Positions 1,978 through 47,945 of a DNA stretch of 64,000 nucleotides are shown here, one piece after another. A program made the position numbers and the translations under genes. Every line of letters starts with the position of its first letter. Position 1 is the first letter of the stretch. Location of the stretch: the NCBI RefSeq assembly GCF_019711495.1, contig NZ_JAIGNM010000001.1, positions 62,001 through 126,000 of the forward strand, in the 5' to 3' direction. The notes under the pieces are model-generated. The model had not been told where the DNA came from. It made no database searches and was given only the letters and a program-made list of their open reading frames with translations. The DNA is from Qipengyuania xiamenensis. Lineage in GTDB: Bacteria > Pseudomonadota > Alphaproteobacteria > Sphingomonadales > Sphingomonadaceae.

Positions 1978-2306
1978 AAAGCATTCTCTTGCCTGCGGCA
2001 GTTGTCGCCGCTGTTGTAAGTGCATTTTCCATTATTTTTGCAGTATGTTGCTGGGGGATAGTACGCAGCGCGTGGCCAAATTCTGAGTCCAGGAGGACGC
2101 TACTTTTGGCCACCGGACTGATTCCCATTGCCTTAGCGATGCTCTCAATTTTTGTGACTGCGCATATGTTCAGCGAAGCGGCCCGGGACTCTGATCGACT
2201 TGGCTTCGCGACGATTGTCACCGTAGCGTCGCTTTCCATCGTAGTTTCATGGCCTGTAGCCTACCAAGCAGCGAAGCGGATTACCGGGGTTGGCAAAGAA
2301 CAATGA
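1965..2306 (+). CDS. Hypothetical membrane protein with three predicted TM helices
   Basis: A 113-residue protein of unknown function, with hydrophobic helices at roughly residues 8-32, 45-68 and 80-100 and short charged loops between them. It starts inside the end of the nitrilase gene and its stop codon forms an ATGA overlap with the trmD start, which implies translational coupling on both sides. Base composition is visibly lower in G+C than either neighbour, with many A/T third positions such as att, ttt and gca, so it may be a recent insertion or a fast-evolving gene. I recognise no family motif. Confidence 0.6.
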
Positions 2307-3145
2307 CCTTCGAAGCCGCCATCTTGACCCTTTATCCCGAGATGTTTCCCGGGCCGCTGGGCGTGTCGCTTGCGGGCAAGGCGTTGGAGCGGGGGGACTG
2401 GTCGTGCGAGACCGTCCAGATTCGCGATTTCGCCACCGACAAGCATCGCACGGTCGATGATACGCCGGCTGGTGGCGGGGCGGGCATGGTGCTCAAGGCG
2501 GATGTGCTTGGGCGTGCGCTCGCAAGTATCCTCCCCGGTACGGGGAGGGGGACCGTCGAAGACGGTGGAGGGGACTCTGCGGCAATCGCAGGCGCTGAGG
2601 GCAAATCCCCTCCGTCAGATGCTGCGCATCTGCCACCTCCCCGAACCGGGGAGCCGTTACCAATCCTCGCCATGACGCCGCGGGGCAAGCCCATTACGCA
2701 GGCGCGCATTCGCGAGATTGCCGCCGGGCCCGGTGTGGCCATCCTGTGCGGTCGGTTCGAGGGCTTCGACGAGCGGATTTTCGAGGCTTTCCCGCAGATC
2801 GAACAGGTCAGCCTCGCCGATATCGTCCTGTCGGGCGGAGAGACTGCCGCGCTGGCCATACTCGACGCTTGCATTCGGCTGCTTCCCGGAGTAATGGGCG
2901 CGCCCGATAGCGGAGTCGAGGAGTCCTACGAGAACGGGCTCATCGAATATCCGCAATACACCCGACCTCAGGAATGGGAAGGGCGCACGATCCCTGAAGT
3001 GCTGCGATCGGGGGATCATGCGAAAATCGCTGCTTGGCGCAAGGCAAGGAGCGAGGAAGACACACGGTTACGCAGGCCGGACCTTTGGGATCGCTACAGT
3101 GGCGATCGGGACCAGTCTGCCTCTGATGCGCGGCAAAAGAAGTAG
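2303..3145 (+). CDS. trmD: tRNA (guanine-N1)-methyltransferase TrmD with an in-frame repeat insertion
   Basis: TrmD methylates G37 at N1 in tRNAs reading CNN codons, using S-adenosylmethionine, and prevents +1 frameshifting. Family signatures are present: LYPEMFPG near the N-terminus, [15 protein letters not shown], the SAM-knot segment [21 protein letters not shown], and the C-terminal YTRPQEWEG and HAKIAAWR. The start is the ATG overlapping the upstream stop; an earlier in-frame Met would lie inside the upstream gene. At 280 residues it is longer than E. coli TrmD (255). The excess, about residues 76-117, is a proline/glycine/acid-rich stretch encoded entirely by a palindromic repeat (see the repeat entry). 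All motifs flanking it are intact, so the protein is probably functional. rplS follows by 13 bp, the classic trmD-rplS order, but rpsP and rimM are not immediately upstream. Confidence 0.95.
2531..2653 (+). repeat. REPIN-like inverted pair of palindromic repeats inside trmD
   Basis: The two ends are related sequences in inverted orientation. The left end begins CTCCCCGGTACGGGGAGG. The right end, read on the minus strand, begins CTCCCCGGTTCGGGGAGG. Each end is itself a hairpin. Further in, GGAGGGGA at 2567-2574 pairs with TCCCCTCC at 2606-2613, so the whole element can fold into one long imperfect hairpin. The architecture matches REP doublets (REPINs or BIMEs) known from many bacteria and normally found between genes. 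Here it sits in a coding frame with no stop codon and keeps the downstream frame. Mobilisation of such elements usually depends on a RAYT transposase; none lies in this window. Confidence 0.8.
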
Positions 3146-3158
3146 GAAGACCAGGCAA

Positions 3159-3527
3159 ATGAACCTGATCCAGCAGCTCGAAGCCGAAGCTATTGAAAAC
3201 CTCGGCAAGGACATTCCCGAATTCCGCGCAGGCGACACCGTCCGCGTCGGCGTGAAGGTTGTCGAAGGCACCCGCGAGCGTGTCCAGAATTTCGAAGGCG
3301 TTGTCATTGCCCGCTCGAACCGCGGCATGGGCAGCAACTTCACCGTCCGCAAGCTTTCGTTCGGTGAAGGCGTGGAACGTGTGTTCCCGCTGTATTCGCC
3401 GATCGTCGACAGCATCACCGTGGTCCGCCGCGGTATCGTGCGTCGTGCGAAGCTTTACTACCTGCGCGGCCGCACCGGCAAGCGCGCGCGTATCGCGGAA
3501 CGCCGCGACAACGCGCCCAAGGCGTAA
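3159..3527 (+). CDS. rplS: 50S ribosomal protein L19
   Basis: L19 sits at the 30S-50S interface of the ribosome. The 122-residue product begins [10 protein letters not shown] and carries the family hallmarks [42 protein letters not shown] and the C-terminal [15 protein letters not shown]. The start was chosen by homology; the open frame extends further upstream into trmD but lacks family sequence there. It follows trmD by 13 bp in the conserved order and ends in a strong rho-independent terminator. Length is normal and nothing is unusual in the protein. Confidence 0.98.
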
Positions 3528-3578: not shown

Positions 3579-3593
3579 GTTGTGCTGTGCGGA

Positions 3594-3724
3594 AACGTAA
3601 AAAGGGCAGTGCGCCTGAACGCACTGCCCCAAACCCCGCAAAAGTAAAAAGGGCGGTGCGCCTGAACGCACTGCCCCAAACCCCGCAAACGTAAAAAGGG
3701 CAGTGCGCCTGAACGCACTGCCCT
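3594..3724. repeat. Three tandem 47-bp repeats, each holding a perfect-stem hairpin
   Basis: Three direct copies with a period of exactly 47 bp; stems start at 3604, 3651 and 3698. Each contains a 10-bp stem, GGGCAGTGCG with CGCACTGCCC, around the loop CCTGAA, preceded by GTAAAAA and (in copies 1 and 2) followed by CCCAAACCCCGC. The middle copy has one stem change (A to G) that still permits a G-U pair. Read on the minus strand, each hairpin is followed by a run of Ts, so the array looks like three minus-strand intrinsic terminators in series, although no minus-strand gene lies to its right. Confidence 0.9.
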
Positions 3725-3961
3725 TGTCACGTGGGGATCATGATGAGCCGAAATTGGCTCGGTCTTGATGCCTCCGGGAAACCTGTGAGCCGGAAAAGGG
3801 CCTCCCGTTGACAAGACAGGTTCTGGCAGCAGGTTCTTAAGGGGGTTTAAGGAAGCGCACTTAACCCGAAATTAGGCATAAAAACTTCTACGGCCACGCT
3901 CCGCCTTGCAATCGGGGCGAGGCATTGCGAGGACGCGGCGACAAGATTTTCGGGAGAGAAC
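3725..3961. other. Intergenic leader upstream of the S9 peptidase gene
   Basis: About 240 bp without a credible gene, the remainder of the 434-bp gap between rplS and the peptidase. It holds a small hairpin (GAGCC/GGCTC at 3745-3760) and a perfect TTGACA hexamer at 3808-3813 for which I find no good -10 at the usual distance. A GGGAGAG ribosome-binding site lies just before the peptidase start. The promoter for the peptidase/permease pair is presumably here but I cannot place it. Confidence 0.5.
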
Positions 3962-46679: not shown

Positions 46680-47945
46680 TTACGGGCGCGTCTGACCATT
46701 ACCGTGCACAAGGTATTTGAAGCTGCACAGCTGTTCGAGTCCGACAGGACCGCGGGCGTGCATCTTGCCGGTCGCGATGCCGATTTCCGCGCCCATGCCG
46801 AATTCGCCGCCGTCGGCAAACTGCGTGCTGGCGTTGCGCATGACGATCGCGCTGTCGATCGAGGTCATGAACCGGCGTGCGGCCTCGTCGTCCTCGGTCA
46901 TGATCGCGTCGGTGTGATGCGAAGAGTGCGTGTCGACCCAGTTGATGGCTTCGTCGAGGCCATCCACGACCTTCACGCTGGCGATCGGATCGAGATACTC
47001 GGTGTTCCAGTCGGCATCGGTGGCGGGCCTGATGCTGCCATCGATAGCTACTGCTTCCTCGTCACCGCGCAGTTCACAGTCGCTGCCCATGATCGAGGTG
47101 AGGCGCGGAATGAATTCCTTCGCCACGGCCCGGTCGACCACGATGCTTTCGGTGGCGCCGCAGACGCCGGTGCGGCGCAGTTTTGCGTTGCGGATGACTT
47201 CGGCGGCCTTGTCGAGATCGGCTGCTTCGTGGACGTAGCTATGGCAGTTGCCGTCGAGGTGGAGGAGCGTGGGGACGCTTGCCTGGTCCCGCACCAGTTC
47301 CACCAGTCCGCGGCCACCGCGCGGGATCACGAGATCGACGAACTCATCCGCCTTGAGGAGGGCTGCCACGGCTGCACGGTCGGTCGTTCCGACCGTCTGC
47401 ACGGCGTTTTCCGGCAGACCTGCAGCCTTGAGGCCTGCACGCATGCAATCGACAATCACGCGGGTCGAATGGCGGCTTTCGCTGCCACCGCGCAGGATCA
47501 CGGCGTTACCGCTCTTGAGGCACAGCGCACTGGCGTCCGCGCCGACATTGGGGCGGCTCTCGTAGATCATGCCGATGACGCCGATCGGAACGGCGACGCG
47601 CTGGATGGTGAGACCGTTGGGCCGCTCGAACGTGGCGAGCTCGCGTCCGACAGGATCGGGCAGCTCGGCGATTTCCTCAAGCGCGCCGGCCATGCCTTCA
47701 ATGCGGTCTTTGGTCAGGCGCAGGCGGTCGATGAAGCTTTCGGGTTTCTTGCCCTCGACGCTCTTCACGTCTTCGGCATTGGCTTCGAGCAATTCGGCAG
47801 TCGCGTCACGCAGGGCCTTGGCAGCTTCGCGCAGGGCAGCGTTCTTGGCGTCCGTGCTGGCGGACAGGAGGCCGCGTGCGGCGTCGCGCGCATTGCGGCC
47901 CAGCGTTGCTACGTGGATCTGCGGATCAAGTGTCTGGTCGTTCAT
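46680..47945 (-). CDS. proA: Glutamate-5-semialdehyde dehydrogenase (gamma-glutamyl phosphate reductase)
   Basis: The second step of proline synthesis: NADPH-dependent reduction of gamma-glutamyl phosphate. The 421-residue protein has the catalytic Cys in [48 protein letters not shown] and [20 protein letters not shown]. The C-terminus is [26 protein letters not shown] (in part). Length is normal. It lies 44 bp downstream of proC on the same strand; proB is divergent on the other side of proC, so the three proline genes form one compact locus. Confidence 0.97.

Follow-up and report, generated by a model that had tools for sequence, protein, structure and literature searches.

The Rickettsia palindromic elements (RPE) are, as PMC10969869 presents them, palindromic repeats of about 150 bp that belong to several families and lie in frame within conserved genes; one is described inside TruB of R. 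conorii (PMC3733652). PMC3733652 also describes GTAG- and CGTC-tagged REPs, which form inverted dimers. Some of these REPs lie in frame within DnaE2, tRNA synthetases or TruB, and for the synthetases and TruB such copies are known from 'E. lithoralis' and S. alaskensis as well. The CGTC repeats are apparently without a dedicated transposase, and TrmD is not named in the main text of that paper. In-frame palindromes in genes are already known (PMC3733652), also for 'E. lithoralis'. Neither for the repeated use of one TrmD loop as a hot spot nor for copies that carry a nuclease gene between their palindromes did we find a report in the literature searched, which had supplements and most subscription journals outside its scope.

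The element described below resembles RPE as originally predicted, being a palindrome in frame in a conserved gene, with TruB among the hosts in both systems. The likeness is one of layout; unlike RPE, the hosts here are free-living Erythrobacter and Qipengyuania and their kin, a single TrmD loop appears to have been hit by about eight types, and there are long copies bearing a nuclease. With the GTAG/CGTC REPs our elements share the inverted dimers and the hosts of their in-frame copies (DnaE2, tRNA synthetases, TruB), but type A, the type found in this trmD, shows no terminal GTAG or CGTC tag, and here a nuclease gene stands between the halves of the long copies. REPINs, which are tied to RAYT transposases, are likewise built of two inverted palindromes around a short spacer; in contrast, our element has no Y1/RAYT match in its genome, is intragenic and is present as a single copy. 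Like MITEs it is short, non-coding, bounded by terminal inverted repeats and probably derived from a longer coding element, although the presumed parent carries a gene for a nuclease (GIY-YIG or DUF559) in place of a transposase gene. In homing endonuclease genes, such as those of the GIY-YIG class, a small nuclease gene is the only coding content of the mobile unit, and it is likewise the sole coding content of our long copies, which differ in having palindromic ends, many nuclease-less short counterparts and no recognised intron or intein.

An in-frame palindromic element in the TrmD loop

The window, that is, the whole stretch of 64,000 nucleotides analysed here, comes from a 2.8-Mb Qipengyuania xiamenensis genome in five contigs. 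It contains trmD, the essential gene for tRNA (guanosine(37)-N1)-methyltransferase, as an open frame of 280 aa on the + strand (2303..3145) that includes the translated insert. The protein scores 269.2 bits against NCBIfam NF000648 (cut-off 220) and 224.1 bits against TIGR00088 (cut-off 195), which places it above the cut-off of both NCBIfam TrmD equivalog models, and it is the sole TrmD match in its genome. The original prediction that the insert is translated without a frame break, with the flanking TrmD motifs intact, agrees with this open frame and these scores.

The whole element is a 123-bp double palindrome at 2531..2653 (+). Its left half (2531..2573, + strand; CTCCCC-GGGGAGG-hairpin-GGAGGGG) and its inverted right half (2607..2653, matched on the - strand) were delimited by pattern matches and are separated by a 33-nt spacer (2574..2606, +). 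Two inverted copies of 44 bp each had been predicted; the inversion stands, and the actual lengths are 43 and 47 nt. The outer arms (2531-2551 and 2633-2653) are 21 nt each and 90% complementary. The 136-nt stretch 2525-2660 has a fold energy of −80.9 kcal/mol versus a shuffle mean of −55.8 (z −6.74), and none of 200 shuffles reached the native value. No Rfam family matches anywhere across 2400-2800, and inspection of both halves found neither a terminal GTAG nor a terminal CGTC tag, CGTC being present in them only inside a stem. The element has terminal inverted repeats and no gene of its own, as MITEs do; across it, the curated family matches of the frame are to TrmD models only.

At the protein level the insert had been placed at about residues 76-117, with a gain of about 40; the element corresponds to residues 77-117, and its net gain over uninserted relatives, most of which have a short loop here, is 39 residues. 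The Pfam match of the window TrmD is split into two stretches around the insert, as are 25 of the 27 PDB sequences matched. The best of these, 9ue5_A, pairs the flanks of the insert with its residues 2-75 and 80-222, and five other PDB matches resume at query residue 103, inside the insert. AlphaFold, run with 27 sequences, gave a model of poor confidence on the whole (mean pLDDT 63), in which residues 80-115 lie below pLDDT 50, likewise residues 54-61, 199-223 and 268-280; in this low-confidence model the insert is bordered by helix 66-76 and strand 121-130. The best 50 Foldseek matches listed are all TrmD structures.

The loop was read in 59 of the 60 genus genomes (G013 has no TrmD match), of which 14 have an insert and 45 do not, including two (G010 and G062) whose uninserted loops exceed the usual 25 residues by 9-10. 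A family survey matched 294 of 298 genomes, with single-hit genomes counted as uninserted without individual reading, and at least 37 genomes outside the genus gave split hits. We fetched 33 of these 37 (all except G206, G225, G310 and G344) and found 29 complete inserts in 14 genera, two cases at a contig edge (G241 and G257, which start inside the insert and are excluded from the 43 inserts treated below) and two with none. By eye, G005, G022, G072, G147 and G187 are without an insert, and none was seen in G311.

The 43 complete inserts add 30-91 residues, all at one loop. They were assigned by eye to about eight palindrome types, A (nine inserts), B (two), C1 (nine), C2 (six), D (11), E (four), F (one) and G (one); a relationship among B, C1, C2 and G is possible, and the main types have, in our reading, no obvious common sequence. 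With 14 of 59 genus TrmDs inserted and 29 more in 14 other genera, the insert is not the one-species event that it had been suspected to be. These sequence comparisons mark the TrmD loop out as a repeatedly used landing site within this bacterial family, one that about eight types appear to have occupied. A set of named strains was collected with the inserted window protein and is therefore biased towards that protein, besides sharing some genomes with the family survey; in it, the loop exceeds 35 residues in 21 of the 77 loops parsed (80 in all, L295, L300 and L310 being unparsed). Carriers of a long loop there include Erythrobacter longus DSM 6997, E. colymbi, Citromicrobium bathyomarinum, Parerythrobacter lacustris and Novosphingobium jiangmenense. 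The 43 inserts have a mean fold z of −4.5, with 32 below −3, versus a mean of −0.03 and none below −3 for equal-length downstream stretches of the same trmD genes. At one locus (L165 in G283, counted as type E) an E element is followed by two D elements, all in frame; counted from GGGAGMV up to the following strand, this loop has 116 residues. At another (L032 in G005) trmD lies across three reading frames in the assembly, which may be a sequencing error or a broken gene.

Copies of the palindromes and the nuclease genes between them

A search of the source genome with the 123 bases of the element returned the element itself and 11 matches of 14-31 bases; the type-A half pattern matched the trmD pair only, and the D, C1 and E half patterns had no match there. 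Across the genus, the type-A half pattern occurs in 22 of 60 genomes (21 of 59 besides the source genome), and the same pattern read backward gave one match over all 60. Type-D halves occur in at least 26 of the 60, with up to 51 in one genome (G020) among the matches listed, type-C1 halves in 17, and type-E halves in at least 16, with up to 146 (G073) among the matches listed. The original prediction took a lack of other genomic copies to speak against a repeat; in this genome there are indeed none, yet relatives carry copies, and for that reason the window element is a lone relic in its genome rather than something other than a repeat.

Most facing pairs of halves lie about 40-130 bases apart, start to start, and some genomes have one pair per type at 330-431 bases. 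There are at least 26 such long-spaced pairs (L384-L409), 12 of type A, seven of C1, five of E and two of D; a possible further one (contig C17 of G073, C1 halves at 46857 on the + strand and 47269 on the - strand, with a third half between them) is outside the 26. When fetched, all 26 proved to enclose an open frame above the Pfam nuclease cut-off, the ORF having been picked by motif before hmmscan in L397, L398, L404 and L405. The nuclease class follows the palindrome type, with DUF559 in A and C1 (19 of 19) and GIY-YIG in D and E (7 of 7). RNA genes were considered for the long-spaced loci and rejected, the first ten being without an Rfam family, tRNA or tmRNA.

Clustering of flanks assigns the 26 long copies to eight distinct places: four for type A (in seven, three, one and one genomes), two for C1 (six and one), one for E (five) and one for D (two). 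Because the 26 fall at only these eight, many or most long copies are inherited residents and not 26 independent cases. That count, together with the single place shared by all five E copies and the single place of both D copies, leaves some room for the nucleases being unrelated to movement, as resident small genes around which palindromes settled. We regard this as somewhat unlikely, given that a nuclease is found at 8 of 8 places, that the two classes are sorted by palindrome type, and that type A stands at four separate places and C1 at two; four palindrome types and two nuclease classes are paired at the eight places without exception.

Short and long copies could be compared most closely for type D. 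The long D copy of G020 is 357 bases in length, with 35-base terminal repeats that are 89% identical, and 18 of the 19 aligned short type-D elements of that genome share extra bases past the halves with it. The joint extension at the inner edges averages 23.3 bases versus 2.0 for shuffled interiors, the observed value being the better of two orientations and the control a single one, with 41 as the largest of 950 shuffles. As bases beyond the halves are common to both, the sequences suggest that short D elements are internal deletion products of the long D copy. Inner edges were compared for type D only; for type A the possible kinship of short and long copies lies in their common halves, which flank DUF559 genes in 12 genomes at four places. 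In our reading, the number of short type-A copies shows no clear rise where a nuclease copy is present. The tails of some nuclease frames are peptides that are also found in TrmD inserts, STSSART for D, VSTSLDTNG for E and PPTPSPEGEG for C1.

We consider it probable that trmD harbours a palindromic mobile element of type A, short and non-coding, which is a relic of palindrome-nuclease-palindrome elements and is tolerated in TrmD. Its ends occur in relatives also as palindrome, DUF559 nuclease gene, palindrome, and the short form would be a MITE-like deletion derivative of such a long nuclease copy; judging from their association, the nuclease would mobilise the palindromes. The element would have gone into, or been exchanged at, a permissive TrmD loop between helix 66-76 and strand 121-130, and insertion in a stop-free frame would have let a flexible passenger loop be translated without stopping the essential enzyme, the longer TrmD presumably being made and active. 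In this genome trmD would hold a lone fossil, because the searches of it turned up neither a further type-A copy nor a nuclease copy flanked by such halves.

A wider proposal, which we advance tentatively and rate as possible rather than probable, is a new kind of bacterial mobile element with palindromic ends and one small nuclease gene (a DUF559 PD-(D/E)XK or a GIY-YIG nuclease, recruited separately) that spreads, in trans, many palindromes lacking the nuclease. As its ends can be read through, in-frame insertion into loops of essential RNA-handling enzymes would be survivable, with the TrmD loop as a favoured refuge. If this is true, nuclease elements would be the missing mobiliser for REP- and RPE-like repeats that have no transposase, and for the movement of in-frame palindromes, known since Rickettsia, the nuclease link offers a direct and testable candidate. 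PMC1829167 mentions methyltransferases that are joined to such nucleases, one of E. litoralis to GIY-YIG and others of alphaproteobacteria to DUF559, and these fusions would fit in-frame insertion of long copies. Among our own long copies, the nuclease frames of L387 (G020) and L388 (G061) run without a stop into an S4-domain protein, and that of L403 (G005) into tryptophan synthase alpha.

Gain, loss and exchange at the TrmD loop

On a LepA tree of 78 genomes (LepA has no match in G062 and G077 and a partial one in G002 and G073), the presence of an insert needs at least 20 changes, 14 of them forced by well-supported branches, and the palindrome type needs 26. Absence is weakly clustered on this tree, with 29 of 500 shuffles as low, and the source genome (type A) has G083 and G006, both uninserted, as neighbours. 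When the tree is built from the trmD core instead (113 rows, without the loop), presence needs at least 24 changes, 13 of them forced, and type needs 37; absence is clustered on this second tree, none of 500 shuffles being as low. Transfer of inserted trmD alleles is unlikely to be the only cause, given that the trmD-core tree, too, requires no fewer than 24 changes of presence.

Some trmD-core clades are wholly inserted with differing types (for example genus g28; g45 with g110; and G000, the source genome, with G020, G033, G080 and G082), and G180 (type A) and G289 (type C1) have the same upstream junction sequence. These cases, and the clustering of absence on the trmD-core tree, are what one old insertion in the family ancestor would leave behind if it was later overwritten by other types through recombination and lost many times. 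We think such a history rather improbable as the general explanation, in that 45 of the 59 genus genomes have no insert and very many clean losses would be needed. Separate insertion and overwriting may both occur, and the wholly inserted clades of differing type keep insertion, loss and exchange from being told apart completely. Inspection of 16 comparisons between sisters by eye showed no target-site duplication, the flanks being too divergent for proof.

The insert in its reading frame and in other host proteins

The dN/dS of the TrmD core is 0.08-0.19 in every pair computed, and that of the insert is 0.39-1.36 in the seven pairs compared, which are short alignments with a few flanking codons, two of the seven possibly joining non-orthologous inserts. 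Because the core values are low and the insert values near neutral, we read the insert as a tolerated passenger loop that would evolve nearly freely within a conserved enzyme. The predicted placement in a tolerant loop fits these values, and the suggestion that the insertion had been domesticated is not supported by them, the insert being nearly free to evolve in the seven pairs. Occupied by different elements in different species, the TrmD loop amounts to a natural experiment on the tolerance of an essential enzyme for 30-91 inserted residues.

Selection of the translated frame for hydrophilic or disordered peptides was rejected: it has the lowest hydropathy in only 8 of the 43 inserts and is the richest in disorder-promoting residues in only 17. 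An alternative forward frame is also open in some of the inserts (+1 in 20 of 43, +2 in 7 of 43). By eye, all 11 type-D TrmD inserts are read in one frame, and among the type-D copies of G020 this frame is open in 29 of 38 readings versus 21 of 38 for the second frame.

Retention of the insert for a function, either as an mRNA hairpin modulating how strongly trmD/rplS are expressed or as a peptide that changes TrmD, would suit its very stable fold and the repeated occupation, in many species, of one and the same loop, but we hold it to be very unlikely, with main types that have no obvious common sequence, near-neutral dN/dS, two type-D inserts (G079, z +1.4; G106, z −1.0) that lost the unusual fold and kept the frame, and most genus relatives without any insert. 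The term REPIN-like, used in the original prediction, holds for the layout of two inverted units with a short spacer and fails for the link to RAYT: the Y1 transposase (PF01797) has no match in this genome (G000), for which reason we rejected it as the mover here, and the element is unrepeated in its genome and lies inside trmD instead of being extragenic. A true REPIN that was moved by a RAYT and jumped into trmD once in the lineage thus has little to recommend it beyond that layout and the Y1 matches in 5 of the 60 genus genomes (one protein with 66.9 bits against a RAYT model cut-off of 80), when the other 55 have none, G020 has 51 type-D halves among the matches listed and no Y1, a tested palindrome motif is near only 1 of the 10 Y1 loci scanned (L106), and the halves carry no terminal GTAG or CGTC tag.

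In-frame copies were found in six further host genes by the half patterns and by a search with the D peptide, the latter favouring one frame by design (loci L365, L375, L366, L349, L368, L371, L367, L252, L254, L258 and L262). The hosts are valyl-tRNA synthetase (G023 and G364, same model position), isoleucyl-tRNA synthetase (G020 and G075, same flanks), the glycyl-tRNA synthetase beta chain (G036 and G079, same model position), TruB (G008 and G027, same flanks), DnaE2 (G021 and G027, same flanks) and HrpB (G082); all but HrpB have the same site in two species. The G020 isoleucyl-tRNA synthetase and both DnaE2 pieces are fragments under the curated cut-offs, and each remaining host protein passes one. 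RNA-handling enzymes appear conspicuous among the hosts found, as they are in PMC3733652. The D-peptide search led to 20 fetched loci, nine scanned with NCBIfam and 11 judged by eye, whose frames are short, antisense-looking or terminal. In a frame-blind set made up of 20 type-D pairs from G020, two or more are in frame with conserved proteins (isoleucyl-tRNA synthetase and YciB). Copies at the N terminus of YciB, coproporphyrinogen oxidase and an oxidoreductase may precede the true start.

As to the neighbourhood of trmD in the window, the usual genes before it are rpsP-rimM, and the order here differs: 1024-2306 holds a 317-aa frame that resembles, as we take it, a nitrilase-type hydrolase, and a 113-aa frame with a 4-base overlap with the trmD start. 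Downstream, trmD is adjoined by an open frame at 3159..3527 (+) that from its sequence is presumably rplS, for ribosomal protein L19. Just 3' of rplS, at 3590-3730, is a tandem array of three 47-nt units, each a strong hairpin (GGGCAGTGCGCCTGAACGCACTGCCC).
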